Shown here: piece after piece, positions 5,624-24,460 of the stretch | Numbering within the stretch: position 1 is the first letter of the stretch | Layout: the number at the start of each line of letters is the position of its first letter | NCBI GenBank assembly: GCA_030524205.1 | Contig: JAUNGZ010000011.1 | Coordinates: 1 to 64,000 of the forward strand | Source of the DNA: Eubacteriales bacterium | GTDB lineage: Bacteria; Bacillota; Clostridia; Oscillospirales; Butyricicoccaceae | Length of the DNA stretch: 64,000 bases | Direction: 5' to 3' | Translations under genes and position numbers: made by a program | Notes under the pieces: model-generated | Told to the model about the DNA's origin: nothing | What the model saw: the letters and a program-made list of their open reading frames with translations, nothing else | Database searches by the model: none

Positions 5624-6619
5624 TTACCGTACCCGAAAGGTCGCTTCCACACTACCCCGTCCCACGGCGGCGGGTAAACCGGCGGGGGCGTCCAGCGCGC
5701 CCAGACGGGTGTAGCTGTAGCCGCTGTCAAAGGTTTGGTAAAACAGCACCAGACAATCGTCGCCGTACAGCATCAGATCGCCGGCGCGGATGGTGCCCGG
5801 ACGCGCGGCGTTGGCCGGCAGGCTGTCAGGCAGGTAATAATACTTCTCGTTCCCGTTCAGCTCGGACAGCGTCACGGTCAGCGGCAGGCGGTCAAGCAGC
5901 GCGCGCGTCGTTTCGTTGTCCTCCAGCGTGACAGGAAAGGCTTGGTTTCCGATCTCAACGGTTAGCTTGGGCAAAATGGCGGGGTCGTCCTGTCTGTCGG
6001 GTCCTTCGTTCGGCGCGCCGCCGGTCAGCCAGCGGCACAGGATGGCGGCGGTCTCGGCGCGGGTCGCGCGGCCGTTGGGATCGAAGCGGCCCCCATCCTT
6101 TCCGCTCACTATGCCGCCTGCGCACGCCCATGCGGCAGCGTCCGCCGCGTAGGACGGAATGGCAGTTTGATCGGCAAACGGCGTTGTTTCCGCTGCGGTC
6201 GGTCTGCCATCGACCCGCCACAATATTGCGGTCAGCTGGGCGCGGGTGACAGGGTCGTTCGGGCCGAAGCGCCCATCGCCGTAGCCGGTGACGACGCCCT
6301 GTTCATTCGCCCATGCGGCGGCTTCGGCGTAATAGGCCGCGCCGGACACGTCGGCAAACGGTTCGCCGCCTGCCGCCGGACTGCCCGCCTGCCGCCAGAG
6401 CATGGCGGTAAGCTGGGCGCGGAAGGTAGCATCATGCGGGGAAAAAGTGGTGTCTGATGTACCGCTGATCAGTCCGGTATCGCGGCAGTACCGCACAGCC
6501 GCGGCGTAGTAAGCGTCCTGCGGCACGTCTGCAAAGCCGGTATCGACGGCGAGCGCCGGAACGCCTATCTCAAACAGCACAGAAAGCGCCGTTAAGCAGG
6601 AAAGAAGCTTCTTCTTCAT
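5624..6619 (-). CDS. S-layer-homology protein with C-terminal cyclophilin-like domain
   Basis: This 331-residue exported protein has a signal peptide (MKKKLLSCLTALSVLFEIGV). Three S-layer-homology repeats span about residues 25-205, with the hallmarks GFADVPQDAYYAAAVRYC, PFADVSGAAYYAEAAAWA and ATRAETAAILCRWL, and should anchor it to secondary cell-wall polymer. The C-terminal 115 residues (LTVEIGNQAFPVTLEDNETT to RLGALD) match the cyclophilin-like fold family (PF18050-type), whose ligand is unknown. The start is the ATG at 6619, five bases from the stop of the upstream flavodoxin-like gene. It is the last gene of operon A, and the same domain pair recurs at 21985-22995. Confidence 0.85.
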   Translation of the reverse strand: MKKKLLSCLTALSVLFEIGVPALAVDTGFADVPQDAYYAAAVRYCRDTGLISGTSDTTFSPHDATFRAQLTAMLWRQAGSPAAGGEPFADVSGAAYYAEAAAWANEQGVVTGYGDGRFGPNDPVTRAQLTAILWRVDGRPTAAETTPFADQTAIPSYAADAAAWACAGGIVSGKDGGRFDPNGRATRAETAAILCRWLTGGAPNEGPDRQDDPAILPKLTVEIGNQAFPVTLEDNETTRALLDRLPLTVTLSELNGNEKYYYLPDSLPANAARPGTIRAGDLMLYGDDCLVLFYQTFDSGYSYTRLGALDAPAGLPAAVGRGSVEATFRVR

Positions 6620-6623
6620 TGGC

Positions 6624-7166
6624 TCAGGCCTTTCTGCCCATTTCGTAGGCATCCTGCAGCAGATTTGGCAGCGCCGCCATGTCGCCGGGTACTGTCGCGC
6701 CCACGCCGCGCACCACGCCGCAAAGCCGCGTTTTTTCAAAGCACGCGATCCAGCCGTTCAGACCGTTCACCGCGCCGTCCACGGCGCTCTCCTCCGATTC
6801 AGCGGCGGACGCCAGCAGATAGATATCGCGGAAGGCGTAGTCCTGCAGGAACAGCGGATTGGTGCGGTCAAGCAGCGTTTTCATCTGGCCGCTCATCTCG
6901 TAAAAGTAGATCGGGGTGGCGAATACGATCACGTCTGCGTGGAGCATTTTCTCTAAAACAGCGTCCATATCGTCGCGGATCACGCACTTTTGTGTTTGCT
7001 GGCAGGTGAGGCAGCCCTTGCAGAAGCCGATGGTTTTGTCGTGCAGGCTGACGGTCTCCACCCGATGGCCCGCCTCCCGCGCGCCTTCGGCGAACTGCTC
7101 TGCCAGCGCGGCGGAATTGCCCGCCTTGCGGGGGCTGGTGGAAAGGATCAATATTTTCTTACTCAT
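6624..7166 (-). CDS. Flavodoxin-like NAD(P)H-dependent FMN oxidoreductase
   Basis: This 180-residue protein has the FMN phosphate-binding motif STSPRKAGNSAAL at residues 9-21, a two-cysteine motif GFCKGCLTC near residue 50, and the flavodoxin segment VIVFATPIYFYEMSGQMKTL at about 80-100. These are typical of the NADPH-dependent FMN reductase / iron-sulfur flavoprotein-like family. It probably reduces quinones or other electrophiles in the cytosol. The ATG at 7166 is preferred because an upstream extension (to 7211) has no conserved sequence. It is translationally close to the SLH gene downstream. Confidence 0.85.
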   Translation of the reverse strand: MSKKILILSTSPRKAGNSAALAEQFAEGAREAGHRVETVSLHDKTIGFCKGCLTCQQTQKCVIRDDMDAVLEKMLHADVIVFATPIYFYEMSGQMKTLLDRTNPLFLQDYAFRDIYLLASAAESEESAVDGAVNGLNGWIACFEKTRLCGVVRGVGATVPGDMAALPNLLQDAYEMGRKA

Positions 7167-7207
7167 AAGAATTCCTCCTGTTGCGTCACAGCGTTTTTGG
7201 GGAACGG

Positions 7208-8152
7208 TCACTTCAGATTTGCGCGGAAAAAGTCGGTCAGCTTGTCAAAGGGGATGCGGTCGGTGCGGTCGTACAGGTCGATGTGCTCCGCGTCGTCCAC
7301 CACATACAGCTCCTTCGGCGCCTCGGCCTTGGCATAGGCGTTCTCGCTGAAAAATTTGCTGTGCGCCCGGTCGCCCACCACGAACAGGATGGGGCGGGGC
7401 GAAATCTCGTCGATGAAGTCCAGCAAACGGAAGTTCAGCATCGCCAGATCGCTGGTGGCGGTGAAGCCGCCGCGCGCGTTCGGGTGATGGCCGCGCTTCA
7501 CCGCGTAGAACCGCATCCACTCGTCCGTGATGGGATCGAGGCCCTCCGGCACTTCGTCCAGCGGCGTTTCGGGGAACGACGGCGTGTAAGCGGGAAAACC
7601 GTTTTCCGCGTCCGCCCAGCGCTGGCGGGACAGCCGCTCCTTTTCCGCCCGCAGCGCCGCCGCGTCCATGGAATCCCGGCCTGCCGCGCTCATGTCGTAC
7701 ATGCTGCACGCGGCCACGGCCTTGATGCGGGTGTCGCACTGGGCGGCGGACAGCGCGAAGCCGCCCGAACCGCAGATGCCGATCACGCCGATTTTCTCGC
7801 GGTCGACAACCGATTGCAAGCCCAGAAAATCCACGCCCGCGCTGAAATTCTCTGTAAAAATATCGGGGGACGAAACATGACGCGGCGCGCCGGCGGACTC
7901 GCCCATAAAGGACTGGTCGAACGTGAGCACCACAAAGCCTCGCTGCGCCAGCTCGTTCGCGTAAACGCAGGGGCCCTGTTCCTTGACGCCGCCGTAGGGC
8001 GCGCCCACGAGCAGAGCGGGGTGGCGCGCGCTTTGGTCAAGGTCTTTCGCGGTGTAAAACTCGCCCGCGATGTCCATGCCGTAGCGGTTTTGATAACAGA
8101 CGGCCGTTCTCTGTACGCGCTCGCTGAGCGGCGCGATATGATAGTTTCCCAT
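7208..8152 (-). CDS. Alpha/beta hydrolase (YcjY/dienelactone-hydrolase-like)
   Basis: This 314-residue protein has an oxyanion-hole region ALLVGAPYGGVKEQG, a nucleophile elbow GICGSGG with Ser129, and a likely acid and histidine in VVGDRAHSKFF and DDAEHIDLYDR near the C-terminus. It has no signal peptide, so it is cytosolic. The fold and length match the YcjY-type alpha/beta hydrolases, which cleave esters or small amides; the substrate is unknown. A GGAGGA site precedes the ATG at 8152. It sits inside operon A, 41 bp upstream of the flavodoxin-like gene, where it could act on a product imported by the same operon. Confidence 0.8.
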   Translation of the reverse strand: MGNYHIAPLSERVQRTAVCYQNRYGMDIAGEFYTAKDLDQSARHPALLVGAPYGGVKEQGPCVYANELAQRGFVVLTFDQSFMGESAGAPRHVSSPDIFTENFSAGVDFLGLQSVVDREKIGVIGICGSGGFALSAAQCDTRIKAVAACSMYDMSAAGRDSMDAAALRAEKERLSRQRWADAENGFPAYTPSFPETPLDEVPEGLDPITDEWMRFYAVKRGHHPNARGGFTATSDLAMLNFRLLDFIDEISPRPILFVVGDRAHSKFFSENAYAKAEAPKELYVVDDAEHIDLYDRTDRIPFDKLTDFFRANLK

Positions 8153-8187
8153 GATGATTCCTCCTGTTCTGCCGGTGGTTGGTCGTT

Positions 8188-9570
8188 TTATTTGGCGCAG
8201 GCCTGCCGCGCCGGTAAGCCGTGCGGCTCCGCAGTGAAAAAGCCGCGCCCCATGCGTTTGTAAAGCAGTATCCCGACGGGGACGGCAATCGCTTCCGCCG
8301 CCGCGAAGGACAGCCACACCAAGTTAAGACTGCCGAGCTGCGCGCCCAGAAGCAACAACGGCGCCAGCGCGGCCACCTGCCGCACAAACACCAGATACAT
8401 GCTGTAATTCCCATTCCCAAAGCCCTGATATACCGCCGCGAAAATGATGTTCGCCGCGCCCACAAAAAAGCTGAGGGACAGCAGGCGCACCGCCGGTATC
8501 CCGAGCGCCATCATCTGCGGGGAGGCGTCGAACAGCATGAGGATCTGATCGGGGATCAGCTCCATCACGACCAGAATGACCGCCATGACCACGCCGCCCA
8601 TCAGAAAGGCGCAGCGGATGGTCTGCCGAATGCGCTCCCGTTTGCCCGCGCCGTAATTGTACGCGATGATCGGGATCAGGGCGTTGTTCATACCCTGCAC
8701 GGCGATCTGCGCGATGTTCTGCACCTTTTGGCCGATGCCGTAGATCGCGACCGCCGTCGAGGAAAAACCATACAGCACCGTGTTGATGAAAATACCCATA
8801 ACGGACATGATGCCGGACAGCACGGCGGTGGGAACGCCCACCTGCAAAATTTTCCGGACGCTCGCGCCCGAAATGTGCAGCGTAAAGTGGATGGGGATTT
8901 CCTTGTTCCGCTTGATATTGAGAAAAATACCCCAAATGCCGCCCGCAAACTGCCCGATGACGGTAGCCGTCGCCGCGCCTGCCGTGCCCATGGCGGGCAG
9001 GCCGAAATAGCCGAAGATCAAGATGGGATCGAGGATCAGGTTTACCACGGACGCGGTGGAGAGCGTCGCCAGAAAAAGCGAGGAACGTCCCGTCGCGATC
9101 AAAAAGCGGTCAAACACCCACTGGATCATCTGCCCCAGCGAAAACAGCATGCAGATACGGATGTAGGCCTTGCCGTGTGCGGCGATCGCCGCGTTTCCGC
9201 CAGCTTGCCAGTTAAAATACGGCTCGGCGATAACAAGGCAGGCGGCGGCGATCAGCAGGTATGCGCCCACGGCCATCACCATGGCGGCGGAGGCCGTGTT
9301 CCGTACCTCCGCCGCGTTTTTCTCGCCCAGCGCGCGGGAGATGACGGCGTTCAGGCCGACGGCCAGCCCGCTGCCCATCGCGATCATGATCAGCTGGATG
9401 GGCGCGGCGAGCGATAGTCCGGTCAGCGCGTCCTCGCTGATACGCGAAACGAAAATGCTGTCCACCAGATTGTATAGATTGTTGACCAGCAGCGAGACGA
9501 TCAGCGGCAGCGACGTTATAACGATCAGCTTTGGAATGGGCGTCGTGCCCATGCGGTTTGCGTTTTCCAT
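8188..9570 (-). CDS. MATE-family multidrug/metabolite exporter
   Basis: This 460-residue integral membrane protein has 12 predicted hydrophobic segments in two repeats of six, starting with IPKLIVITSLPLIVSLLVNN. The motifs GLSLAAPIQLIMIAMGSGLA and MNNALIPIIAYNYGAGKRER are characteristic of the MATE (MatE PF01554) superfamily, cation-driven exporters of cationic drugs or metabolites. The start at 9570 is chosen over upstream in-frame codons because it begins the conserved region (MENANRMGTTPIPK). It lies in the middle of operon A, 31 bp after the aminotransferase-like gene. Confidence 0.9.
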   Translation of the reverse strand: MENANRMGTTPIPKLIVITSLPLIVSLLVNNLYNLVDSIFVSRISEDALTGLSLAAPIQLIMIAMGSGLAVGLNAVISRALGEKNAAEVRNTASAAMVMAVGAYLLIAAACLVIAEPYFNWQAGGNAAIAAHGKAYIRICMLFSLGQMIQWVFDRFLIATGRSSLFLATLSTASVVNLILDPILIFGYFGLPAMGTAGAATATVIGQFAGGIWGIFLNIKRNKEIPIHFTLHISGASVRKILQVGVPTAVLSGIMSVMGIFINTVLYGFSSTAVAIYGIGQKVQNIAQIAVQGMNNALIPIIAYNYGAGKRERIRQTIRCAFLMGGVVMAVILVVMELIPDQILMLFDASPQMMALGIPAVRLLSLSFFVGAANIIFAAVYQGFGNGNYSMYLVFVRQVAALAPLLLLGAQLGSLNLVWLSFAAAEAIAVPVGILLYKRMGRGFFTAEPHGLPARQACAK

Positions 9571-9601: not shown

Positions 9602-10693
9602 TCAGCAGCGCGCCAGCACAAAGGCTTCGTAAGCGGCAAGCCCGTCCCGCAGCCGGTCGAGGTCGGCACGCAAAGCGTCACGGGAACAGGCGGCGTTCAT
9701 GCACAGAAAAGCCTCGCTGTTCCTTCCGTATCTCCCGCCCGCCGACAGCGAAAGCCCGGTCTTTTCCCGGATGAAATCGGCGGCTTCCTCCGCACAGCCA
9801 AGCAGCCGGCCGCAATCCAGCCATAAACGATCGGCGGCTTCTGACGTCGCTGCCTTAACCGACGGCAGTTCCTTTTCGAGATACGCCGCCGCAAAATCCT
9901 TGTTTGCCCGGATGTGCGCCCTGCGGGCATCGAGCCATGCCGCGCCTTTGGTAAACGCGGCGATAGCGGCGTCCGCCGCGAAAACGCCCGGCTCCGCCGC
10001 CCCGTTGCCCTGCAGCGCGCGCCCCGCCTTGTGACGCATCACGGCGTTTGGTATTACCACCGCCGCTGTTTGCAGTCCCGCTAAATGGAATGCTTCCGCC
10101 GGGCCGACGCAGGTGATGCTGTTTTCGCGGCATTGCGCGGAAACCGAAGCGAACGGGACATACGGCTTGCCCGGGTCGGTCAAATCGCACAGGCTTTCGT
10201 CGGCGATCACCATTACCTGATGCTTCGCCGTGAGCAGTCCGATCCGCTCCAATGCGGCCCGATCCCAAATGCTGCCCGTCGAGCTGTGGGGATTGTTCAG
10301 CAGCATCAGCGTGGTATGCGGATCGGCCAATCTCCGTTCCAGATCGTCAAAATCAATTTCATAGGCCCCGCCGTGATTTTGCAGCGGGCTTTCCGTCACC
10401 TGTCTGCCATTGCCGGTGATGGCGTCAAAATACGCGGGGACGGCCGGGGTCATAAGCAGCACCTGCTCCGCCGGCGCCGTGAACCTGCGCACCATGCAGG
10501 AAATCGCGGCTATCGTGCTTGTGGTAAACAGCAGCCAATCCTTCTCCATGGAAAATCCATGGCGCGTCCGCCACCAGCCCAGATAAGCCTGATACCACTC
10601 CTCTGAGAGATTGGCAGAACAAAACACGCCGCGCGCTGCCCGCGCGGCGACCGCGTCCCTGATCTCGGGTGCGGTTTCCAATTCATATGTCAT
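9602..10693 (-). CDS. MalY/PatB-like aminotransferase fold lacking the PLP lysine (probable pseudoenzyme)
   Basis: This 363-residue protein follows the fold-type I cystathionine-lyase/aminotransferase layout. It has WLLFTTSTIAAIS near 53-65, NNPHSSTGSIWDR at 133-145, VIADESLCDL at 162-171 and CVGPAEAFHLAGLQT at 195-209. In PatB/MalY proteins the last motif reads with Ser-Lys-Thr-Phe and the lysine binds pyridoxal phosphate; here that position is Glu200 (GCG GAA GCA). The PLP-contacting second Asn of the NPHNP motif is replaced by Ser, and the C-terminal Arg-x-Asn that binds the substrate carboxylate reads Cys-Met-Asn. The Asp that pairs with the pyridine nitrogen (D165) is kept. The frame is intact and cotranscribed in operon A, so I infer a retained non-catalytic or repurposed protein, perhaps binding an amino-acid-like ligand. 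Start at 10693. Confidence 0.75.
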   Translation of the reverse strand: MTYELETAPEIRDAVAARAARGVFCSANLSEEWYQAYLGWWRTRHGFSMEKDWLLFTTSTIAAISCMVRRFTAPAEQVLLMTPAVPAYFDAITGNGRQVTESPLQNHGGAYEIDFDDLERRLADPHTTLMLLNNPHSSTGSIWDRAALERIGLLTAKHQVMVIADESLCDLTDPGKPYVPFASVSAQCRENSITCVGPAEAFHLAGLQTAAVVIPNAVMRHKAGRALQGNGAAEPGVFAADAAIAAFTKGAAWLDARRAHIRANKDFAAAYLEKELPSVKAATSEAADRLWLDCGRLLGCAEEAADFIREKTGLSLSAGGRYGRNSEAFLCMNAACSRDALRADLDRLRDGLAAYEAFVLARC

Positions 10694-10723
10694 GTTTTCT
10701 CTCCTAAAATACATGCGGCCCGG

Positions 10724-11191
10724 TCAGTCCATCGAAAAGGTGACGGACACATCGTCGCCGTCCAGCGCGTCTTCCCAGCCGGATAGGTCGTCAACTTTGC
10801 CGAGCCTGGTATAGCTCCAAGAATTGGAGCCGTAAAAAAGCACGATCTGATCGCCGCCGTATAAAACGATGTCTCCCGCGTGCGTCGTCAGTTGGCTGTC
10901 GTCGGCGGGAAGCGTGGCGCCAAGCGCGCCCACCTTTTCAAAACCCGAATAGTCTCGCATTGTTATGATTACGGGCGCGCTTTGCAGCAGCTCCGCAAAA
11001 GCGTCGGCGGCGGGGTTTTCCTCCAAGGTGGCGGTAAAGGCTGCGCCGCCTATTTGCACGTTCAGCTTGGTCACGGTCTGTTCCTCCGTTTCTGCTTCGT
11101 TTGCCGGTTCCGGTATAGCTTGCCCGCCGCCGCAGGCTGTCAGGCAAAATGCCAGCAGCAGCCCTAAAAGAACCCCAAAAACTCGTTTCAT
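10724..11191 (-). CDS. Cyclophilin-like lipoprotein
   Basis: This 155-residue protein has a lipoprotein signal (MKRVFGVLLGLLLAFCLTAC, lipobox LTAC) and a short acidic linker. A cyclophilin-like domain runs from about residue 40 to the end: LNVQIGGAAFTATLEENPAA, HAGDIVLYGGDQIVLFYGSN and SYTRLGKVDD. The GD-I-VLYGGDQIVLFY strand pair is shared with the SLH proteins at both ends of this region and with the lipoprotein at 14503-15087. It is anchored on the outer face of the membrane. The ligand is unknown. Start chosen at the beginning of the signal peptide, 17 bp after the LysE gene. Confidence 0.8.
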   Translation of the reverse strand: MKRVFGVLLGLLLAFCLTACGGGQAIPEPANEAETEEQTVTKLNVQIGGAAFTATLEENPAADAFAELLQSAPVIITMRDYSGFEKVGALGATLPADDSQLTTHAGDIVLYGGDQIVLFYGSNSWSYTRLGKVDDLSGWEDALDGDDVSVTFSMD

Positions 11192-11208: not shown

Positions 11209-11826
11209 TTAGCTGGGTACAAGCGTGCGCAGGAAGATCACCGCGCCGAACGCGGTCAGAAATGCACCAAACACTTTGTTCATGCGGGGAAAGCCGCTTG
11301 CTTTTGCTTTTTTTCGGAGTGTGTGGGTCGCGGCGGCAAGCGTTGTCCACCAGAGATAGGTTCCTATCAATACGCCGCACACCAAGCCCAACCGGTCAAC
11401 CGGCTTCGCAATGCCGGTAACGCCAAAGTAGGAAAAAGCAAACAGAAACGTAAGGATCGCCGCCGGATTGGTGACGCCTATGGCGAAGGAGGACAGGAAC
11501 AGCTTCGCGCCGTGCTTCGCTTGGGGTTCCGCCGCCACCTGTTCCTCTTTTTTCACGATCAGACGAAGGCCTATGAGCAGGATCAGGCTGCCGCCGAGCA
11601 GATGAATGATCGTCTGATACCGCAAAAGGAAATCTGACACCATCGTCATCCCGAACGCGCCGACGATGGCATACAGACAGTCGGCCACGGAGGAGCCGAG
11701 ACCGGTCAGAAGTCCGGCTTTTAAGCCAAACGCCCAAGTGCGCTGCACCGTCATGGCGCCGACAGCGCCCACGGGCAGGCCGAACAGCAGCCCGATCAGC
11801 ACGCCTTTGAACAGATAAGCCGTCAC
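11209..11826 (-). CDS. LysE/RhtB-type amino acid exporter
   Basis: This 205-residue membrane protein has about six hydrophobic segments. The N-terminal LFGLPVGAVGAMTVQRTW corresponds to the LysE-family Gly/Pro-rich first helix, and ITNPAA-like GVTNPAAILTFLFAF is the second conserved block. LysE-family proteins export amino acids or amino-acid-like metabolites. The start is a GTG at 11826 with AAGGAG 8 nt upstream. It lies next to an amino-acid ABC importer in the same operon, which suggests exchange or overflow control of a specific amino compound. Confidence 0.85.
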   Translation of the reverse strand: MTAYLFKGVLIGLLFGLPVGAVGAMTVQRTWAFGLKAGLLTGLGSSVADCLYAIVGAFGMTMVSDFLLRYQTIIHLLGGSLILLIGLRLIVKKEEQVAAEPQAKHGAKLFLSSFAIGVTNPAAILTFLFAFSYFGVTGIAKPVDRLGLVCGVLIGTYLWWTTLAAATHTLRKKAKASGFPRMNKVFGAFLTAFGAVIFLRTLVPS

Positions 11827-11855: not shown

Positions 11856-12095
11856 TTACCTTTGCAGCATGAAAAGCAGGTAATCCAGACAATCGATGCA
11901 TTTTTGATCCTTGTGCAGATCATCCAGCAGACGGCGGCGATGCGTTTGCAGCAGCCGCGTCCCTTCTCGTATTTTTCCGCGCCGAAAATCATCCATAAAG
12001 GCCCGAATCGTTGCGTTGTCGCAATCCGCGTCCTTCAGGTTTTGAACGATATCCTCCTCGCGGTGATACGCGGCCATGCCGCTTCCTTGTTCCAT
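11856..12095 (-). CDS. Small conserved clostridial protein, function unknown
   Basis: This 79-residue, charged, helical cytosolic protein contains EDIVQNLKDADCDNATIRAF and ends DQKCIDCLDYLLFMLQR. A GGGGGGATGAC site precedes the ATG at 12095. The pattern recalls short helical proteins found beside transporters and regulators in Clostridia, but I know no function. It lies 30 bp upstream of the LysE exporter and 50 bp downstream of the substrate-binding protein. The C-x-x-C near the end is the only notable motif. Confidence 0.7.
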   Translation of the reverse strand: MEQGSGMAAYHREEDIVQNLKDADCDNATIRAFMDDFRRGKIREGTRLLQTHRRRLLDDLHKDQKCIDCLDYLLFMLQR

Positions 12096-13031: not shown

Positions 13032-13784
13032 CTAACTTGCCAAGCCGGCATCCGCGCTGACCGTGCGCAGAAACGCGCGGGTGCGCGCTTCACGCGGATG
13101 ATCGAAAAACGCTTTCGCGTCGCCGGCTTCCACGATCATGCCGTTTTCCATAAACACGACCTTGTTCGATACCGTTTTGGCAAAGCCCATTTCGTGCGTG
13201 ACCACAAGCATGGTCATCCCCTCCTCCGCCAACTGCCGCATAACGGCGAGCACCTCGCTTGTCAGCTCGGGGTCGAGGGCCGAGGTCGGCTCGTCGAAAT
13301 AGATGATCTTCGGCTCGGTGGCGATTGCCCGCGCGATTGCGACCCGCTGCTGCTGGCCGCCGGAAAGCTGGTTTGGAAAATAGTCGTAACGGTCGGACAG
13401 GCCCACCTTGTCGAGCGCCCGCCTGCCGATTTCCACGGCCTGTGTTTTCGGTATCTTACGTGCGACGACCAGCCCCTCCGTCACATTTTGCAGGGCGGTT
13501 TTATTGCGGAACAGGTTATAATTTTGAAAAACAAAAGCGGTTTTACGGCGCAGACGGGCGATATCCCTTTTAGGGACATGGCCGAGCGAAAAGCGCTCCC
13601 CATCGAACATCATGGCGCCGCCGTCCGCCGTTTCTAAGAAATTGACGCAGCGCAGCAGCGTGGTCTTGCCCGAACCGCTGGGGCCGAGGATCGCCACCAC
13701 GTCACCCTGATCGACATGAAGATCGACACCGTTCAGCACCTCGGTACCGCCGAATGATTTTTGAATGTCTGTGATTTCCAGCAT
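13032..13784 (-). CDS. Amino acid ABC transporter ATP-binding protein
   Basis: This 250-residue ATPase has Walker [14 protein letters not shown], a Q-loop near [14 protein letters not shown], signature [14 protein letters not shown], Walker [15 protein letters not shown] and the switch histidine in [10 protein letters not shown]. The NYNLF context and length are typical of polar-amino-acid importers (GlnQ/TcyC-like). The ATG at 13784 has AAGGAGG 8 nt upstream and lies 4 bp from the permease stop. It energises uptake with the neighbouring permease and binding protein. Confidence 0.92.
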
Positions 13785-17585: not shown

Positions 17586-18347
17586 TTACCAGCGCAGGGC
17601 GGTAAGCCATTCGCCGAGCGCTGTTTCCCGCTCGCGCGCGTCCCGCTTGCGGAAAACCGGCAGCGGCAGCTCATCGAGCAGCTTGCCGTCCTCCAGATAT
17701 AAAATGCGGTTGCCGCGGATGGCCGCGCGCATATCGTGCGTCACCATCAATATGCTCTGCCCTGCCTCGTTCAGGGCGGACAGCAGATCTAAAACCTGCT
17801 CGCTGTTCGCTTTGTTCAGCGCGCCGGTCGGCTCGTCGGCAAAGAGCAGGCCGGGGTCGTTTATCATCGCCCTTGCGATCGCCGCGCGCTGTGCCTCTCC
17901 GCCCGAAACCTGCGCGGGCAGGCGGTTTCTCGCACCTTGTAAATGCATCGCTTCCAGCACGGCGGCCGCGGTTTGCTCCACCTCTTTCGGAGAATGCGCC
18001 TTGCCCGCATAACCGGCCACAGCCACGTTTTCAAACAGCGTCAGGTTGCTGACAAGATGTGTCTGCTGAAAGACAAAGCCGAATTCATTGGCGCGAAGAA
18101 ACGCCATTTCTTTTTCGGAAAGCCCGTTGATTTTGCGCCCTTTGTATGTAAGCTCGCCGCCGGTCACGCTGTCCATCCCGCTGAGCGCGTACAGCAGCGT
18201 GGATTTGCCCGCGCCGGACGCGCCCATGATGACGGTAAAATCGTTTTCGTAGAGTTCGATATCGATTTTGTCCAGCACCCGCGCGTTCCCGCCGGTTTGG
18301 GAAAACGTCTTGCAAAGCGCCCGCCCCCCGAGCAGTACGTTTTTCAT
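17586..18347 (-). CDS. MacB/LolD-type ABC transporter ATP-binding protein
   Basis: This 253-residue ATPase has Walker A GASGAGKSTLLYALSGMD, signature VSGGEAQRAAIARAM, Walker B LLFADEPTGALNKANSEQV and the switch histidine in LMVTHDM. The DEPTGALN Walker B extension is typical of the MacB/LolD group that partners FtsX-like permeases. The ATG at 18347 overlaps the stop of the upstream adenylate-forming enzyme gene as ATGA and has AAGGAGG upstream, so a start at 18356 is less likely. Confidence 0.92.
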   Translation of the reverse strand: MKNVLLGGRALCKTFSQTGGNARVLDKIDIELYENDFTVIMGASGAGKSTLLYALSGMDSVTGGELTYKGRKINGLSEKEMAFLRANEFGFVFQQTHLVSNLTLFENVAVAGYAGKAHSPKEVEQTAAAVLEAMHLQGARNRLPAQVSGGEAQRAAIARAMINDPGLLFADEPTGALNKANSEQVLDLLSALNEAGQSILMVTHDMRAAIRGNRILYLEDGKLLDELPLPVFRKRDARERETALGEWLTALRW

Positions 18348-19714
18348 TCGGTGCATCCCTCCTTTGCCGCCGCCGGTACGATCAGCCGCTTTTTGCCCGT
18401 CCGTGGATCGGGCAGGATCTCATCGACAAACCGAATGTCAAACCGCACGTAAGAGAGCCGTTTCTCTGCCAGAATAGTGTTCATTTCCCCCAGCATCTGG
18501 CTGCGGATAAACTCTTTCGACGCGGTTTCCGCCGCTTCCGCCAGCATTTCAAAGGCGTCCGCGCCGGTCTGCCGGAATTGATAGTCCAGCAGGCCCTCGA
18601 TGCAGAACCCCTCGACGGCGAGCGGGTGCAGAAATTCGCGCTTTCCGGCGGCGTCGGTAAACCAGAGGATATCCTCATTCCGGCCCAGCAGGCCGACCGC
18701 TTTCGTAAAGGGGTAACGGCTGTCCGCATCCGGCTTTTGCAGCGTCAGCTTATCGGAAATACGGTAACGGATCAGCGGCTGCGCGAAATTGTACAGGCAG
18801 GTCAGGTACAGCCCGTCCTCCGCCGCTTCGATCACGTTCATATCGTCGAACAAAACCATGCCGTCCTTCGGATCGGCCTCCGCGCCCATGGCGAGCGATT
18901 CGCTCGCGCCGTAGAAGTTGACCACCCGCGTGTGAAAGACCGATTCCAGATACTGCCGCAGGCTGCTCCCCAGCGGTTCGCCGCAGGAGACGACGCGGAG
19001 AACGTCCAGCTCCACCTCGCCGCGCGCCGTGAGCTCTGCGAGTATTTTGATGGCCGACGGATAGCCGATCAGCATGTTTGGCCGAAAGGTACGGATCTGC
19101 CTGACCCACTCGGCCAGCGGCGTCTTGATGTCCAGATAGAGCTGGCTGGCGTGCACGCCGTCGATACCGTCGCCCACCGCCATCGCGCCGCCGTAGCGCC
19201 CGTCCGTCGCCGCCAGATAGACGATGCGCGGGCCGCGCGCCAAAAACCTCAAAATCTGCGGCATGGACATGCCCCACAGCGCCCCGCGCAGGATACCCAG
19301 CAGCATATTACCCCACGCGGCTTCGTCATAAAGAAAGTAGCCGGGCGTTCCCGTGCTGCCGGAGGAGTGCACGACATGGTACTTGCCCCCAAAGGGCCTG
19401 CGGTCTGCCTCCGTCTCCGCGTCAAACTGCCGGAGCGCCGCCTGCGTTACGTCCGGTACGGTGATCAGCTCGTCAAAGTGCGTCAGAAGCTGCGACTTGC
19501 TGAGCGTGGGGAACTGCGACAGCGGGGCTGTGCCGATACTCCTTTCGTCGATGCCCGCCGTGGCAAAGGTGCGGCGGTAATAGCTGGATTTCTCATAGGC
19601 ATAAGCAAGCAGCTTGCGCAGCTTCTTTTCCTGAAGCCGCCGTATCTCCGTGGGGGCTTTCTTTTCGTTGCGTTTGAGCGCGTACAGCGCCCACAAAAGC
19701 TTTCCATAATTCAT
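18344..19714 (-). CDS. PaaK/CapK-like adenylate-forming enzyme
   Basis: This 456-residue protein has the AMP-binding P-loop VVHSSGSTGTPGYFLYDE near residues 114-131 and an adenylation-core strand VVNFYGASESLAMG near 260. It also has the mid-domain aspartate segment PLIRYRISDKLTL and a small C-terminal domain that ends RLIVPAA. This matches phenylacetate-CoA ligase-like (PaaK/CapK/F390-synthetase-related) proteins, which activate a carboxylic acid as an acyl-AMP. The acceptor (CoA, amine or carrier) cannot be told. It sits between an amide hydrolase and an ABC exporter in operon B, so it may re-activate a carboxylic acid released by, or destined for, amide-bond chemistry. Coupled by ATGA to the ATPase gene. 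Confidence 0.8.
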   Translation of the reverse strand: MNYGKLLWALYALKRNEKKAPTEIRRLQEKKLRKLLAYAYEKSSYYRRTFATAGIDERSIGTAPLSQFPTLSKSQLLTHFDELITVPDVTQAALRQFDAETEADRRPFGGKYHVVHSSGSTGTPGYFLYDEAAWGNMLLGILRGALWGMSMPQILRFLARGPRIVYLAATDGRYGGAMAVGDGIDGVHASQLYLDIKTPLAEWVRQIRTFRPNMLIGYPSAIKILAELTARGEVELDVLRVVSCGEPLGSSLRQYLESVFHTRVVNFYGASESLAMGAEADPKDGMVLFDDMNVIEAAEDGLYLTCLYNFAQPLIRYRISDKLTLQKPDADSRYPFTKAVGLLGRNEDILWFTDAAGKREFLHPLAVEGFCIEGLLDYQFRQTGADAFEMLAEAAETASKEFIRSQMLGEMNTILAEKRLSYVRFDIRFVDEILPDPRTGKKRLIVPAAAKEGCTE

Positions 19715-19726: not shown

Positions 19727-20806
19727 TTACGAAAGTTGGAAGAGATAGCTGTTTTGATAGTTTTCGCGGTGGTAATAGCGCGCCGTACCGCCGCCGAGGT
19801 CAAATACAATGCTCCATTCGGTGGATTCAAATTCCCCGAAATTGCGCTTGCTGACCCCGCTCAGCGCGTCGCGCACGGCGTCCGCGTCCATGGTGGGCTG
19901 TTCGCGAAGCAGCCGCGTCAAAATGTCGTACCGTTCATGCGATTGCGACGTGCCGACGCCGTTCTTTTCGCCCTCTGCCAGATAAAAGTTGGTCACCACC
20001 GGCGTTTCGGTCACCACCATTTCGTTGTCCACATACTCGACGGCAACGCTGCGCCCGCTCGTATCCGCCAGCGCGAAATGCACCATCATGCCCATGGAAG
20101 CATGCATATCATATTGACCGAGCAGGTCGAGCGCCTCGTCAACGTCGGCGGCCTTGTTCAGCAGCAAACGGATGGCTGTGGTCGTGGTGAGGTCGGGCTT
20201 GTCCGTATTTTGGTCTATGGTATCCGCGTCCTCGATCATGTTGACCGACACGGCAAGCCCCTTCTCGTTCATGCCGTCCAGCGGGGCGTACAGCGCCGCC
20301 ATGGTGCGGACCTCGTCCAGCCGCAGCGCCGCGCGGATCGCGCCGCCGCTTTGGCTGATAAAGTCCATGTTCACGGTGGAGATCGAAGCGTAGCCCTTCT
20401 CCGGTTTGGAGGCCACGACCAACGCTTCGCAGTTTTGCCAGTCGAAGTTCCGGCCAAACAGCCGCGCGCCCATCGGATCGCTCACCGCAATGGTGCTGCA
20501 TCCGAACAGGCCGCCCAAAATGTCAAGCTCTGTTCCCAAACGGTTCGAGAGGAACGAGACGACCTCGCGGTCGGAGGATGCGCCTCCGGCGGTGAGAAAC
20601 GTGTCAAAGCCGTCGTCGCCCTCATACTTTACCACAGAAAAGCCTTCTTCTAATTCCGTGATCGCGGAGGTGAGCACAACGGCTTGCTCTTGCCGCGCCG
20701 CCTCGCTGCTCGGCGGCTGCATCGCTTCGTTTGCTTTACCGCAGCCGATGATCCACAAGGTCAGGGATAAGCCTGCCAAGGCAAGGGCGAAAAATCGTCT
20801 ATTCAT
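19727..20806 (-). CDS. Lipoprotein linear-amide C-N hydrolase (choloylglycine hydrolase/NAAA-like)
   Basis: This 359-residue protein starts MNRRFFALALAGLSLTLWII with a lipobox cysteine at 22. After a propeptide-like region comes LGGLFGCSTIAVSDPMGARL, then FGRNFDWQN. The cysteine at 103 and the downstream Arg-Asn-x-Asp are the signature of cysteine N-terminal-nucleophile hydrolases of the linear amide C-N hydrolase family (choloylglycine hydrolase, penicillin acylase, acid ceramidase-like). Later motifs PLDGMNEKGLAVSVNMIEDA and TTTTAIRLLLNKAADVDEA also fit. Because the cysteine is internal, maturation should require cleavage just before it. It is membrane-anchored outside the cell and is the first gene of operon B. 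Confidence 0.85.
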   Translation of the reverse strand: MNRRFFALALAGLSLTLWIIGCGKANEAMQPPSSEAARQEQAVVLTSAITELEEGFSVVKYEGDDGFDTFLTAGGASSDREVVSFLSNRLGTELDILGGLFGCSTIAVSDPMGARLFGRNFDWQNCEALVVASKPEKGYASISTVNMDFISQSGGAIRAALRLDEVRTMAALYAPLDGMNEKGLAVSVNMIEDADTIDQNTDKPDLTTTTAIRLLLNKAADVDEALDLLGQYDMHASMGMMVHFALADTSGRSVAVEYVDNEMVVTETPVVTNFYLAEGEKNGVGTSQSHERYDILTRLLREQPTMDADAVRDALSGVSKRNFGEFESTEWSIVFDLGGGTARYYHRENYQNSYLFQLS

Positions 20807-20844: not shown

Positions 20845-20882
20845 ATTGTAACAGCGCACACATACGATAACAAATACTTATA
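20845..20882 (-). promoter_or_regulatory. Operon B promoter with TATAAGTATT box
   Basis: On the minus strand TATAAGTATT (20873-20882) overlaps by one base the -35 box TTGTTA (20868-20873); a 17-bp spacer leads to the -10 box TACAAT (20845-20850). It is back to back with the lysR promoter. Confidence 0.75.
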
Positions 20883-20954: not shown

Positions 20955-21836
20955 ATGGAATTTCGTGTTTTACAGTATTTTCTGGCCGTGACGAGGGAGC
21001 AGAGCATATCCGGTGCGGCGGAGGCGCTACACCTCTCCCAGCCTACGCTTTCCAGACAACTGAGGGACATGGAGGAGGAGCTGGGCAAACAGCTTTTCAT
21101 CCGCAGCAACCGCAAGATCACGCTCACGGAGGAGGGCATGCTCCTGCGCAAACGCGCGGAAGAGATCACCGAGCTCGTCAAAAAAGCGCGGGAAGAGATC
21201 GCCCTGTCGGACGAAGTGCTCGCCGGCGATATCTCGATCGGCGCGGGAGAAACAGACGGCATCCGCCATGTCGTAAGGGCGGCGCAGGACATGCAGAAGG
21301 ATTATCCGCTGGTGCATTTTCACATCGTCAGCGGAGACAAGAGGACCGTTATGGACGACCTCGGCCGCGGGCTGATCGATTTTGCGCTTGTATTTGGCGA
21401 CGTGGATCTTTCCCGGTATGAGTATCTGCCGCTTCATTCCTGCGATCGATTTGGCGTTCTGATGCGCAGAGACGCCCCCCTTGCAGAAAAGGATGTCATT
21501 GCCCCTGAGGACCTCTATGACAAACCCCTGATCGTTTCACGCCAATCCTTTTCCGATGCAAATTTATCAACCATGCTGCGGCGCGATTATGACAAGCTGA
21601 ATATCATTGCGACCTATAACCTCTTATTTAACGGCTCCATCATGGTGGACGAGGGCATGGGCTACGCGATCTGCTTTGACGGTATTATCAATACATCCGG
21701 AAAGAGCAATCTCTGTTTCAAGCCGTTTCCTCCCCATGATCTCATAAAAATGGGCCTTGCATGGAAAAAATATCAGGTTTTCACGAAAGCTGCGATGATG
21801 TTCCTGCAAAAAATGCGGGAGTCTGCCGGGTCTTAA
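20955..21836 (+). CDS. LysR-family transcriptional regulator
   Basis: This 293-residue protein has the N-terminal winged helix MEFRVLQYFLAVTREQSISG followed by AAEALHLSQPTLSRQLRDME, then a linker helix and a periplasmic-binding-like effector domain (LAGDISIGAGETDGIRHVVR, YEYLPLHSCDRFGVLMRRDA). It is divergent from operon B, as is usual for LysR regulators of an adjacent target. The three promoters with a shared decamer at 15.1, 20.9 and 21.9 kb surround it, so I infer it is their common regulator. The start at 20955 begins the conserved HTH, and an AAAGGGG-type site precedes it. Its effector is not visible from sequence. Confidence 0.9.
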   Translation: MEFRVLQYFLAVTREQSISGAAEALHLSQPTLSRQLRDMEEELGKQLFIRSNRKITLTEEGMLLRKRAEEITELVKKAREEIALSDEVLAGDISIGAGETDGIRHVVRAAQDMQKDYPLVHFHIVSGDKRTVMDDLGRGLIDFALVFGDVDLSRYEYLPLHSCDRFGVLMRRDAPLAEKDVIAPEDLYDKPLIVSRQSFSDANLSTMLRRDYDKLNIIATYNLLFNGSIMVDEGMGYAICFDGIINTSGKSNLCFKPFPPHDLIKMGLAWKKYQVFTKAAMMFLQKMRESAGS

Positions 21837-21841
21837 GCGCG

Positions 21842-21914: not shown

Positions 21915-21952
21915 TATAAGTATTAGACATTCGCAAGGCTGCATGTTACGAT
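21915..21952 (+). promoter_or_regulatory. Operon C promoter with TATAAGTATT box
   Basis: TATAAGTATT (21915-21924) overlaps by one base the -35 box TAGACA (21924-21929). A 17-bp spacer leads to -10 TACGAT (21947-21952). This is the same geometry as in operons A and B, on the opposite strand. Confidence 0.7.
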
Positions 21953-21984
21953 TTCTTTATCAACAAAATACAGGAGTGATTCAT

Positions 21985-22995
21985 ATGAAAAAAAGGCTAT
22001 TTGCAATTTTGACCGTGCTGACGCTTGCGGTTTCCAGCACTGCATACGCGGCGGATCCGCTGACCGGGTTTTCCGATATTCCCGAGGGCGCGCCCTATGC
22101 GCAGGCGGTGAAATACTGCCGGGATAACGGACTGATGAACGGCACGTCCGCAACCGAGTTCTCACCGGAGGAAAGCACTTCGCGAGCAATGCTGGTCACC
22201 ATTTTGTACCGCCAGCAAACCGCTTCGGTCTCGGATACCGCCGCGAACGCCTTTGCGGATGTCGCGTCGAACGCATGGTATTACGACGCCGTGCGCTGGG
22301 GCGCGGCGAACGGACTTGTCAGCGGGATCGATGCGACGCATTTCGCACCGGAGGATTTGCTCACCCGCGAGCAGATCTTGACCATTCTCTGGCGTGCCGC
22401 CGAAAGCCCAGCAGCCGATGTTGCCGCCCTGCCTTATACAGATGCGAACGCGATCTCTTCTTATGCCCGGACCGCGGCCGCATGGGCTTATGAAAACGGC
22501 ATCGTCGGCACGGAGACCGGCACGGCGCTCTGGCCGAAGGCTCCTGTCACGCGCGCGGAGCTGGCGCAAACCTTGTACAATTTCCTGAACGCCCCTACCG
22601 CGCAGCCTGCGCCGGATGGAACGCCGGATATCCATGTGACCGTCGGCGACGTGTCGTTCGATGTGGTGCTCTACGATTCCGCTACCACCCGGCTGCTGAT
22701 GACGCAGGTTCCCGAAACCGATATGATGCTCCCGACAAGCTATGACCTGAACGGCGTTTGCAAATACTATGACATCCCCATGTCCTATCATGACGCGCTG
22801 CAGATCGCGGCCGAGCCGGTCACCTCCGTCAAGGCGGGCGATCTGCTGCTCGACGATAGCAACCGGCTGTATCTGTACTATCAGGACAGCGCGGTTTCCG
22901 GTGATTATTTACGGGTCGGTTATGTCGCGGACACGACGGATCTGCAAACAAAGCTCGGCAGCGGTTCCGTTACGTTTTATGTGACGCAGTATTAA
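21985..22995 (+). CDS. S-layer-homology protein with C-terminal cyclophilin-like domain (operon C)
   Basis: This 336-residue exported protein has a signal peptide (MKKRLFAILTVLTLAVSSTA) ending near AYA. Three SLH repeats follow: GFSDIPEGAPYAQAVKYC, AFADVASNAWYYDAVRWGAA and YTDANAISSYARTAAAWAYE, each with its TR-hallmark segment (STSRAMLVTILYR, LLTREQILTILWR, PVTRAELAQTLYN). The C-terminal 120 residues are the cyclophilin-like domain (IHVTVGDVSFDVVLYDSATT, LLLDDSNRLYLYYQDSAVSG). The layout matches the SLH protein at 5624-6619 but sequence has diverged. The start at 21985 opens the signal peptide. It precedes the amide hydrolase gene by 13 bp. Confidence 0.88.
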   Translation: MKKRLFAILTVLTLAVSSTAYAADPLTGFSDIPEGAPYAQAVKYCRDNGLMNGTSATEFSPEESTSRAMLVTILYRQQTASVSDTAANAFADVASNAWYYDAVRWGAANGLVSGIDATHFAPEDLLTREQILTILWRAAESPAADVAALPYTDANAISSYARTAAAWAYENGIVGTETGTALWPKAPVTRAELAQTLYNFLNAPTAQPAPDGTPDIHVTVGDVSFDVVLYDSATTRLLMTQVPETDMMLPTSYDLNGVCKYYDIPMSYHDALQIAAEPVTSVKAGDLLLDDSNRLYLYYQDSAVSGDYLRVGYVADTTDLQTKLGSGSVTFYVTQY

Positions 22996-23008
22996 GGAGC
23001 GCCCGCGT

Positions 23009-24460
23009 ATGAAAAAAACAGTCTCCGCGCTCCTTTGCGCCTTGCTGCTGTGCGCGTCCGGCGCTTTCCCCGCGGGCGCGGCCGACGCATGGACGGTCAC
23101 CATGCGGGTCGGCGATCCGCTCATGACGGTAAACGGTATGGAAACCGAGATCGACCCCGGGTTGGAGACGGTTCCGATCGTTGTCCATGACAGGACCCTG
23201 CTGCCGGTTCGCGCCTTGATCGAATCGGCCGGCGGCACAGCCTCTTGGGACGGCCCGCGCCAGCGGGTTACCCTGACGCTGGGCGAAGATTCCATCGTTC
23301 TCACCATCGGCAGCGATACGGCCTACTGGAACGATGCGCCGCGCACGCTGGACACAGCGCCGGAAATCAGGAACGGCTGCACCATGCTGCCCATCCGTTT
23401 TATCGCCGAGAGCTTCGGATTTCATGTTGATTGGGACGGCGCCCAACAGCTCATTACGATCACCGCTCCGACGGCCCCTCAAACCGAGCCTTATGAAAAT
23501 GTGATAAACCTTTCGGAACAGACGACCCAGTTGGAAAGCGGTCTTTCCGCCGTAAGCTACAGCGGGGAAACCCTGTTCGATGAATTTTTAGCGCAGGGCG
23601 GCGCCGCAACGGATGCGGAGCTGGTACGTTTTTTGCAAAGCCATATCGTACAGAACGCCGGAGAACTGCGCCTCGCGTCGAACACTTTCGGCTGTTCCGC
23701 GATCGCCGTCAAAAACGACGCGGGCGAAGCGCTGTTCGGCCGGAACTTCGATTGGTACAGCAGCGACGCGCTCATTGTCCGGAGCAAGCCCGAAAACGGG
23801 TACGCTTCCATCTCCACGGTCAACACAAATTTTATCAGGACCGCCTACGGCGACTTTATGAGCCTGCCCGAAAAAGCGCGCACGCTTGTTTCGTTGTATG
23901 CCCCGCTGGATGGCATGAATGAAAAGGGGCTGGCCGCAGCGGTGCTGTATATCGAGGACGCGGCCGCGATCAACCAGAACACGGGCAAGCCCGATCTCAC
24001 CACGACAACAGCCATTCGCCTGCTTTTGGATCAAGCCGCCGACGTTGATGAGGCGGTCGCGCTTTTAAAGCAGTATGATATGCACGACTCCCTTGGCATG
24101 ATGGTACATTTCGCGCTGGCCGACGCAAGCGGCAGAAGCGTCGCGGTCGAATATATCGGCGGCGAGATGGTCGTGACCGAAACGCCGGTTATCACCAATT
24201 TTTATCTGGCAGACGGAAGCAAGCAGGGCCTCGGCTCTTCGCAGTCGCACACTCGGTTCAATACCCTGACCGCGCTGCTGGCGGAATCACCGACGATGCA
24301 AATGGCCGACGTCAGGGATGCCCTGAGCAGCGTAAGCAAGCGTCATTTTAACGATGGCGAAACGACCGAATGGAGCATCGTCTATAATCAGGCTCAACGC
24401 GTCGCGCAGTATTATCACCGAGAAAATTACGATAAGGTCTATACTTTTCGCGTTGGCTAA
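23009..24460 (+). CDS. Exported amide C-N hydrolase with copper-amine-oxidase-N-type stalk
   Basis: This 483-residue protein has a signal peptide ending near AGAADA (about residue 26). Two stalk repeats of the copper amine oxidase N-terminal type follow (IVVHDRTLLPVRALIESAGG and IRNGCTMLPIRFIAESFGF), and from about residue 165 a cysteine amide hydrolase domain. The catalytic region reads NTFGCSAIAVKNDAGEALFG with Cys229, then RNFDWYS. PLDGMNEKGLAAAVLYIEDA and TTTTAIRLLLDQAADVDEA are nearly the same as in the lipoprotein hydrolase at 19727-20806, so the two are paralogues with different surface anchors. The stalk domain probably binds cell-wall material. Substrate unknown. Last gene of operon C. 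Confidence 0.88.
   Translation: MKKTVSALLCALLLCASGAFPAGAADAWTVTMRVGDPLMTVNGMETEIDPGLETVPIVVHDRTLLPVRALIESAGGTASWDGPRQRVTLTLGEDSIVLTIGSDTAYWNDAPRTLDTAPEIRNGCTMLPIRFIAESFGFHVDWDGAQQLITITAPTAPQTEPYENVINLSEQTTQLESGLSAVSYSGETLFDEFLAQGGAATDAELVRFLQSHIVQNAGELRLASNTFGCSAIAVKNDAGEALFGRNFDWYSSDALIVRSKPENGYASISTVNTNFIRTAYGDFMSLPEKARTLVSLYAPLDGMNEKGLAAAVLYIEDAAAINQNTGKPDLTTTTAIRLLLDQAADVDEAVALLKQYDMHDSLGMMVHFALADASGRSVAVEYIGGEMVVTETPVITNFYLADGSKQGLGSSQSHTRFNTLTALLAESPTMQMADVRDALSSVSKRHFNDGETTEWSIVYNQAQRVAQYYHRENYDKVYTFRVG

Follow-up and report, generated by a model that had tools for sequence, protein, structure and literature searches.

Positions 5624–24460 of a 64,000-nucleotide stretch of contig JAUNGZ010000011.1 from a Eubacteriales bacterium (the whole stretch is called the window below) hold an 18.8-kb gene cluster in which putative surface amide hydrolases of the choloylglycine hydrolase (CGH) family, an ABC system and proteins with a cyclophilin-like domain (Cyp) lie beside a LysR-type regulator. 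We read it, giving the reading somewhat less than an even chance, as a regulon of Clostridia that occupies a single locus, is controlled by LysR and is dedicated to handling an amide-linked compound, or class of compounds, at the cell surface. That its LolD-like ATPase and FtsX-type permease, a Cyp lipoprotein and a surface N-terminal nucleophile (Ntn) hydrolase make up a Type VII ABC machine of a new kind, which hydrolyses amides, with a cyclophilin-like adaptor and LysR sites confined to the locus, is a narrower proposal that we offer tentatively, with perhaps a third of our confidence behind it.

Judged by gene spacing the cluster comprises four transcription units. The first runs on the minus strand from 20806 to 15221 and encodes the hydrolase CGH1, an adenylate-forming ligase, LolD and FtsX. 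The second, also on the minus strand (15087 to 5624), consists of twelve genes separated by no more than about 50 bases, in the order Cyp-A, importer permease, importer ATPase, solute-binding protein (SBP), small protein, LysE, Cyp, PatB-like protein, MATE, alpha/beta hydrolase, FMN reductase and SLH-anchored Cyp. LysR stands alone as the third unit (20955–21836, plus strand), divergent from CGH1, and the fourth (21985–24460, plus strand) encodes a further SLH-anchored Cyp and the hydrolase CGH2. Gene starts were assigned from upstream sequence and reading frame; the second SLH-Cyp lies in an open frame of 21943–22995 (plus strand), with its likely start at 21985. The assembly itself is 2.2 Mb in size and 82% complete.

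A preliminary description of this DNA had pictured a LysR-linked, surface-directed cluster with two amide hydrolases, an adenylate-forming enzyme, an ABC exporter, an amino acid importer, LysE and MATE exporters, an oxidoreductase and an alpha/beta hydrolase. Pfam and NCBIfam matches agree with each of these assignments, and we add to them the PatB-like protein (9602–10714) and a protein of 79 amino acids (11856–12095). The cluster proved to be real and conserved: its core genes recur in most of 59 related loci and share a common promoter box, so chance co-location was rejected. Relatives in which the genes are scattered and not co-regulated had been named as the outcome that would speak against it; the genes were instead found together, under one promoter box.

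Conservation of the cluster

Searching the GTDB genome collection with CGH1 turned up 59 loci, mainly from Lachnospiraceae, Oscillospiraceae and other Clostridia, some of them labelled only “uncultured bacterium”. Named hosts are Clostridium methylpentosum (L056), Schaedlerella arabinosiphila (L097) and Longibaculum muris (L111), with one “uncultured Bacilli” (L103), and the names suggest that most of the host organisms are gut-dwelling. Because the loci were picked by similarity to CGH1, co-occurrence is counted given that similarity, and the loci are also related by descent; presence per locus was scored with bit-score thresholds of our own choosing. All open reading frames (ORFs) of at least 60 amino acids were used to map the window proteins onto the loci and to count Cyp-A genes after FtsX. 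The small-protein family count, the neighbour gene maps and the genes around boxes come from a greedy choice of ORFs, which overlooks genes under long antisense ORFs, and absences there are to be read as lower bounds.

Cyp proteins were found in 50 of the 59 loci, the ligase in 47, LolD in 45, FtsX in 44 and LysR in 39. Among the 42 loci of at least 15 kb the corresponding numbers for these core genes are 40, 37, 37, 36 and 30. In the same 42 loci the small protein (23 loci), DUF3737 (22), LysE (21), aldo/keto reductase (15) and alpha/beta hydrolase (13) also occur, as do FMN reductase (9), PatB (5), importer ATPase (4), SBP (3) and MATE (2). Relatives of the alpha/beta hydrolase scoring at least 150 bits occur in 15 of the 59 loci. 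The usual order is LysR divergent from CGH-ligase-LolD-FtsX-Cyp, often followed by the small protein, DUF3737, LysE and another Cyp, and it is retained in loci from different named groups. Recurrent families that carried no label in the mapping and were scanned with Pfam were assigned to DUF3737, aldo/keto reductase, short-chain dehydrogenase (SDR), Fe-ADH, CMD-cupin, DUF362, an ArsP-type permease, a hexapeptide transferase and a flavodoxin-Cyp fusion.

A promoter box shared by the units

Two intergenic regions of the window hold the sequence AAATACTTATATTRAAT exactly, and a third copy with three mismatches precedes SLH-Cyp/CGH2. At up to three mismatches the window contains four matches against 0.10 expected, the fourth lying inside the gene at 2377–5526. 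Among 26 intergenic regions between LysR and CGH genes, that of the window included, 22 contain CAAATACTTA, and ATAA-N7-TTAT is present in 13 against 0.84 expected. Across the 1,006,467 bases of the 59 loci the 12-mer RCAAATACTTAT has 70 matches, spread over 44 loci and absent from the other 15. All 70 point one way and none the other, and the reversed pattern has no match. The start of LysR or of a labelled cluster gene lies within 350 bases of 62 of the 70; six have no called start in reach and two only an unlabelled one.

Read in the direction of transcription the box is TATAAGTATTTGYTA, the final six bases of which are −35-like and overlap the predicted −35 element. A TATAAT-like −10 element (at least four of six bases) follows at a fixed spacing of 17 bases in 66 of the 70 matches, compared with a mean of 9.0 and a maximum of 20 when the same stretches were shuffled, and 3.5 at random positions in the loci. 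The A and T found 7 and 6 nucleotides upstream of the search core, outside the pattern itself, are invariant in all 70. The three window promoters have the same 17-base geometry (Table 1). It is near certain, judging from these sequences, that the operons share a regulatory site, and the position of LysR, divergent from CGH1, together with its family leads us to infer that it is the binder. CidR was considered as an identity for this regulator and dropped, the NCBIfam model NF047520 giving 131.4 bits against a cut-off of 415.

Of the 59 genomes, 28 were searched whole. They hold 33 exact matches to the 15-mer form of the box, in 21 genomes (seven have none), against two for the reversed pattern. 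Thirty of these fall in known loci, 29 of them placed by sequence (from 30 sites fetched) and one unfetched site by its coordinates, and the remaining three lie at a second CGH-ligase-LolD-FtsX-Cyp set (G113), a second CGH/LysR/ligase set (G108) and a LysR orthologue (G101). Exact boxes are thus limited to this kind of locus in the genomes searched, and a genome-wide LysR regulon is unsupported. One genome carries two copies of CGH-ligase-LolD-FtsX-Cyp, with a box at each (L085 and L176, the latter on G113:C31).

The putative surface amide hydrolases

CGH1 and CGH2 match the Pfam CBAH/AAT families, and both pass the NCBIfam C45 proenzyme model NF040521 (96.5 and 91.8 bits, cut-off 85). A bile salt hydrolase label was rejected for the pair, which score 29.9 and 37.7 bits against a cut-off of 350 for NF038245. 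Residues C103, R119, D122, N273 and R292 of CGH1 are invariant in all 65 aligned sequences, and the first four align with C2, R18, D21 and N175 of the choloylglycine hydrolase structure 2bjf in the Protein Data Bank (PDB), which we take to be the bile salt hydrolase of Clostridium perfringens (CpBSH). C2, R18, D21 and N175 are the catalytic Cys, Arg, Asp and Asn of CpBSH (PMC8066178). The catalytic residues of CGH1 are intact, with Cys103 as the predicted nucleophile, and R292 would be the counterpart of CpBSH R228.

CGH1 probably acts at the outer face of the cell, since of 63 relatives 44 have a recognisable lipobox and several others start with a hydrophobic segment. About 80 residues separate the lipid anchor from the nucleophile. 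Ntn enzymes that carry a pro-segment have a similar stretch ahead of theirs, so by analogy a lipid-held pro-segment in CGH1 is possible. The enzymes of the cluster share family and catalytic Cys/Arg/Asp/Asn with the Pfam CBAH and NCBIfam C45 proenzymes, but differ in being lipoproteins or membrane-anchored with this spacing, in falling below the bile salt hydrolase cut-off and in having ABC and ligase genes as neighbours.

The nearest hydrolases in the PDB are of the CGH family and include an exported choloylglycine hydrolase and penicillin acylases, which would also suit a role in detoxification of, or resistance to, an amphipathic antimicrobial or bile-type amide. Here LolD-FtsX (as a MacB/Bce-like system) and MATE would expel the compound, CGH1 and CGH2 would inactivate it outside and the redox genes would repair damage. 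The two exporters LysE and MATE, together with an FtsX-type ABC system, fit this account, as do a box 62 bp ahead of a MATE homologue in locus L098 and the placing of redox enzymes under the same regulator and box. It leaves a CoA-type ligase and an amino acid importer superfluous, however; a strong MATE match is found in only two of the 59 loci, and the bile salt hydrolase scores are far below their cut-off. We consider it unlikely, though worth keeping in view beside a regulon dedicated to hydrolysis of an amide.

The ABC system and the cyclophilin-like proteins

The ATPase of the first unit scores 210.5 bits with the LolD model TIGR02211 and 160.2 bits with the YbbA model, below both equivalog cut-offs, and lies beside an FtsX-type permease (PF02687). 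The permease gives 35.7 bits with NF041854 (cut-off 999), and its hydropathy places large segments at residues 36–270 and 455–653 between hydrophobic stretches. As described in a 2025 paper, YbbAP-TesA of Escherichia coli is a Type VII ABC system that works with an extracytoplasmic hydrolase, and it is believed to pull out hydrophobic molecules and hand them to that enzyme (PMC12646458). The cluster resembles it in having a LolD/YbbA-like ATPase, a single-chain FtsX permease with two large segments and an adjacent extracytoplasmic hydrolase, and a short-chain dehydrogenase lies near both: YbbO in E. coli, by the same source, and an SDR in L054, L061 and L063. The differences are that the hydrolase here is an Ntn amide hydrolase, whereas TesA is a GDSL esterase, that the cluster adds a cyclophilin-like lipoprotein, a ligase and linkage to LysR, and that the ABC-hydrolase complex is predicted. 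As the partner is a different enzyme and the complex here is a prediction, we would place the cluster among hydrolase-coupled ABC systems, set apart from YbbAP-TesA itself.

By this analogy LolD-FtsX would feed CGH1, with Cyp-A, usually encoded just after FtsX, as the outer partner. The preliminary description counted four proteins with the same cyclophilin-like domain, two of them SLH-anchored and two lipoproteins. The domain and the anchors hold, all four exceeding the curated PF18050 cut-off of 22.7 bits (Table 1), and a six-frame search of the assembly (E ≤ 0.001) found these four PF18050 genes only. They are not copies of one part, as the two lipoproteins are 28% identical and an alignment of 44 Cyp proteins separates them into subtypes. 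The Cyp-A subtype shares about 47–58% identity with the 14503–15087 protein across loci and carries YYDIPSRYEIP and NRIVLFY stretches. It occurs in 43 of the 59 loci, and of the 44 loci that have FtsX, 36 have Cyp-A as the first labelled gene behind it; among the other eight, six have no labelled gene within reach, one has another Cyp and one has LysE. In a set of 60 genomes, our own included, Cyp-A was found only in G000, G010 and G024, all of which carry the CGH operon; G001, G028 and G033 lack it, although each has a CGH match. The G024 gene is split by about 70 kb (L036 and L037; G024:C45, 9609–9890 and 80528–80803), which looks like a large insertion, and the G010 copy is unbroken.

The remaining Cyp proteins belong to the type found together with flavin reductases. 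Without a hydrolase, Cyp genes sit with flavin reductase, acetyltransferase, CMD-cupin, DUF3737 or importer genes, some of them adjoining the same LysR and box, and the idea that the domain is specific to amide chemistry falls on this point. A fusion of Flavodoxin_4 to Cyclophil_like2 in one locus (L051:10224–11171) ties PF18050 to flavin redox chemistry. PF18050 proteins that lie beside flavodoxins or are fused to them share the domain of the cluster proteins, which differ in that Cyp-A usually stands behind FtsX and in having SLH-anchored forms. A profile search with the Cyp alignment against solved structures gave none at E ≤ 0.01.

Ligase, transport and redox genes

The ligase is related by sequence to a phenylacetate-CoA ligase (PDB 2y4o, E 1.1e-11) and has conserved SSGSTG and YGASES stretches in alignment, but at 45.8 bits against a cut-off of 646.3 (TIGR02155) it is not assigned as PaaK. 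An adenylating enzyme next to a C45-family enzyme that passes its cut-off, in a family that NCBIfam names acyltransferase/hydrolase, could also be arranged for biosynthesis or signalling. The ligase would then activate an acid, LolD-FtsX or MATE would export the conjugate, the surface hydrolase would mature it or act as an acyltransferase, and LysR would answer to the product. Such prodrug logic, in which a surface hydrolase matures an exported conjugate, is that of PvdQ and ClbP. The presence of exporters and the limitation of exact boxes to the cluster are compatible with it. Against it stand operons without the ligase, and no carrier, condensing or amide-forming enzyme is present among the 14 listed recurrent neighbour families (ten of them Pfam-scanned), although these enzymes were not the target of a search of their own. 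We judge biosynthesis improbable compared with hydrolysis of an amide at the surface, and for quorum-type signalling, which had been raised as an option earlier, there is no positive evidence.

The best models for the importer subunits are all of the cystine type and all fall below NCBIfam equivalog cut-offs (173.2 of 312, 309.2 of 406 and 217.2 of 300 bits). The PatB-like protein lacks the pyridoxal phosphate (PLP) lysine, the DEIH motif, the substrate arginine and the N-terminal part. Glu207 occupies the position of the lysine, and all 11 relatives compared keep the lysine, DEIH and the arginine. Without the PLP lysine and below the TIGR04350 cut-off of 340 bits it is not assigned as a PatB C–S lyase. 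A conserved PLP-free subfamily is unsupported, since the window copy alone has lost the lysine among 12 close matches from 61 genomes, and the next best match in its own assembly is 25% identical. The gene presumably encodes a pseudoenzyme or is decaying.

These genes bear on a further explanation, salvage or clearance of cysteine S-conjugates, whereby CGH would remove an N-acyl group outside, the cystine-like importer would take up the conjugate, PatB would cleave the C–S bond and LysE or MATE would export the products. The importer's nearest models, the FMN reductase, a near-invariant LysR cysteine (Cys254, kept in 40 of 42) and genome G017, where no CGH was found and a lysine-bearing PatB lies beside an importer, SLH-Cyp, an aldo/keto reductase, a LysR relative and the box, all point this way. 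The missing lysine of the window protein, the scarcity of PatB (6 of 59 loci) and of the importer ATPase (5 of 59), and the failure to account for LolD-FtsX and the ligase make it quite improbable in our estimation.

With LysR regulons that contain cystine-type importers, such as YtmI/tcy of Bacillus subtilis, the cluster has LysR, a cystine-like importer, a flavin reductase and a deacylase-type enzyme in common, but here the importer is non-core and the hydrolase extracellular. No monooxygenase is among the families identified, no search having been aimed at monooxygenases. The family of the small protein at 11856–12095 has two near-invariant cysteines (33 and 32 of 35), and thiol or redox sensing by these or by LysR Cys254 is possible.

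Proposed function and evidence against it

In the regulon we propose, LysR would bind the box, sense the compound or a product of it, and activate transcription. LolD-FtsX, as a Type VII mechanotransmission system most like YbbP, would extract a membrane-partitioning amide and present it to CGH1, Cyp-A would serve as the extracytoplasmic adaptor, and CGH1 would cleave the amide to acid and amine. The cytosolic PaaK-like ligase would activate the released acid, and LysE and MATE would export toxic or surplus products. A co-induced redox/thiol module (flavin reductase, alpha/beta hydrolase and the SLH- and lipoprotein Cyp, joined in relatives by aldo/keto reductase, SDR, Fe-ADH, DUF3737 and PatB) would handle reactive by-products, and SLH-Cyp/CGH2 may form a second hydrolase unit within the regulon.

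Several results weigh against this proposal. The importer, PatB and MATE are rare (importer ATPase 5, SBP 3, PatB 6 and MATE 2 of the 59 loci). CGH-ligase-Cyp occurs without LolD-FtsX in L087 and L095, the ligase is missing from the otherwise typical operons of L064, L065 and L067, and L069 and L103 lack both, so these parts are not strictly obligate. The CGH of G033 adjoins a different Cyp type and that of G028 has no Cyp-A. That YbbP (9ge6) is the top PDB match of the FtsX profile favours the proposal, but the match is weak (E 0.001 over 50 columns), and no single stretch passes by itself. The box, too, is probably in part the −35 element itself. In the window's own genome the 14-mer has two perfect matches, both in the cluster, against one for the reversed pattern, and at up to two mismatches there is no enrichment (21 against 26); across 99 relatives exact matches number 14 against 18. 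Six of the 12 exact 14-mers outside the own genome (G015, G017, G056, G066, G069 and G089) adjoin LysR, Cyp, FMN reductase, importer or DUF3737 genes, and the other six (G054, G058, G061, G065, with 1.8 kb viewed, G070 and G092) are chance-like. Among these relatives the box is informative by position, not by frequency.

The non-core importer, the outward direction of LysE and MATE and the three operons without ligase also weaken the chain that had first been suggested, of capture, cleavage, uptake of the amine and reworking of the acid.

In genome G001 (L044, G001:C58) CGH and the ligase are in pieces while the redox genes look intact, again a point against a single regulon. Among relatives with no CGH match, the box of G056 stands with LysR and FMN reductase as well as Cyp, acetyltransferase and CMD; in G066 it goes with LysR, the importer and the small protein, in G069 with LysR, DUF3737 and the small protein, and in G017 with the set described above. 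Since box and related LysR accompany redox genes there, regulators of this kind have the redox/thiol module as their broader partner, whereas the CGH-ABC unit seems to have been added to it and to be able to decay on its own. Taken further, the same observations, redox, Cyp and DUF3737 genes with a related LysR and box but no CGH, and the state of G001, would allow two unrelated modules, one for general redox or thiol stress and one of CGH and ABC genes, to share no more than a neighbourhood and a regulator. Both carry the same box and promoter geometry in many loci, and their order is preserved in loci of different named groups, which leaves this explanation very improbable beside one regulon for an amide-linked compound.

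Cluster features and neighbouring genes

The features of the cluster are collected in Table 1. Over the window as a whole, neither a promoter scan (10 against 7.4 expected) nor a terminator scan (25 against 23.5) was enriched, and an Rfam scan at gathering thresholds found no RNA elements. Adjoining the cluster, the gene at 2377–5526 (plus strand), accompanied by a helix-turn-helix protein at 1764–2348, encodes a reverse transcriptase-nitrilase fusion (PADLOC RT_UG5-nitrilase, DRT, 786 bits) and is a candidate anti-phage reverse transcriptase. A second MATE-like protein, judged by eye from its translation, lies outside the regulon units at 26872–28227 (minus strand).

Table 1. Predicted genes and promoters of the 5624–24460 cluster, in order of window position.
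Feature	Position	Strand	Evidence
SLH-anchored Cyclophil_like2, redox-module type, last gene of long operon	5624–6619	−	PF18050 109.9 bits, SLH x3
NADPH-dependent FMN reductase/flavodoxin-like (FMN_red)	6624–7166	−	PF03358 85.1 bits
Alpha/beta hydrolase	7208–8152	−	PF01738 22.3 bits, cut-off 21
MATE exporter	8188–9570	−	TIGR00797 187.8 bits, over cut-off
PatB/MalY-like protein, presumed pseudoenzyme or decaying gene	9602–10714	−	TIGR04350 263.4 bits, below cut-off 340
Cyclophil_like2 lipoprotein, redox-module type	10724–11191	−	PF18050 89.2 bits
LysE-type amino acid exporter, GTG start	11209–11826	−	PF01810 56.2 bits
Conserved small protein, 79 aa, without Pfam family	11856–12095	−	Family in 34 fetched loci
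Importer SBP	12146–12997	−	PF00497 130.7 bits; best NCBIfam cystine type, below cut-off
Importer ATPase	13032–13784	−	Best model L-cystine TcyN, below cut-off
Importer permease	13789–14463	−	Best model cystine permease, below cut-off
Cyp-A, Cyclophil_like2 lipoprotein, FtsX-following subtype	14503–15087	−	PF18050 42.8 bits
Predicted promoter, 12-gene operon	15138–15175	−	Box TATAAGTATTTGCT (15162–15175) over −35 TTGCTA, 17 nt, −10 TATAAT
FtsX-type ABC permease, 783 aa, YbbP/MacB-like	15221–17572	−	PF02687
LolD/YbbA-like ABC ATPase	17586–18347	−	TIGR02211 210.5 bits, below cut-off 307.75
PaaK-like adenylate-forming ligase	18344–19714	−	PF00501 32.5 bits, cut-off 29.9
CGH1, lipoprotein-type Ntn (C45/CBAH) amide hydrolase	19727–20806	−	NF040521 96.5 bits, over cut-off 85
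Predicted promoter, CGH1-ligase-LolD-FtsX	20845–20882	−	Box TATAAGTATTTGTT (20869–20882) over −35 TTGTTA, 17 nt, −10 TACAAT
LysR-type regulator	20955–21836	+	PF00126 and PF03466; best NCBIfam CidR 131.4 bits
Predicted promoter, SLH-Cyp/CGH2	21915–21952	+	Partial box TATAAGTATTAGAC (3 mismatches), −35 TAGACA, 17 nt, −10 TACGAT
SLH-anchored Cyclophil_like2 directly before CGH2	21985–22995	+	PF18050 46.0 bits, SLH x3
CGH2, secreted Ntn amide hydrolase with Cu_amine_oxidN1 domain	23009–24460	+	NF040521 91.8 bits, over cut-off 85

Significance

In agreement with the preliminary description, no pathway with this gene set turned up in the open-access literature, and neither did a description of the cluster, as judged by titles and the beginnings of abstracts, with long result lists partly covered. 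There, choloylglycine hydrolase, cyclophilin and operon together led only to proteome work on Brucella, and DUF3737 to no paper. The cluster gives an operon and regulatory context to PF18050, whose role is unclear, and to DUF3737. If the proposal is true, the idea of a hydrolase-coupled Type VII ABC system, described in 2025 for E. coli YbbAP-TesA (PMC12646458), would reach Gram-positive commensals and amide bonds. The predicted promoter code is precise, so the inducer should be findable by a simple reporter screen, and amide hydrolysis at the surface of gut Clostridia could touch host and dietary amides, conjugates and drugs.

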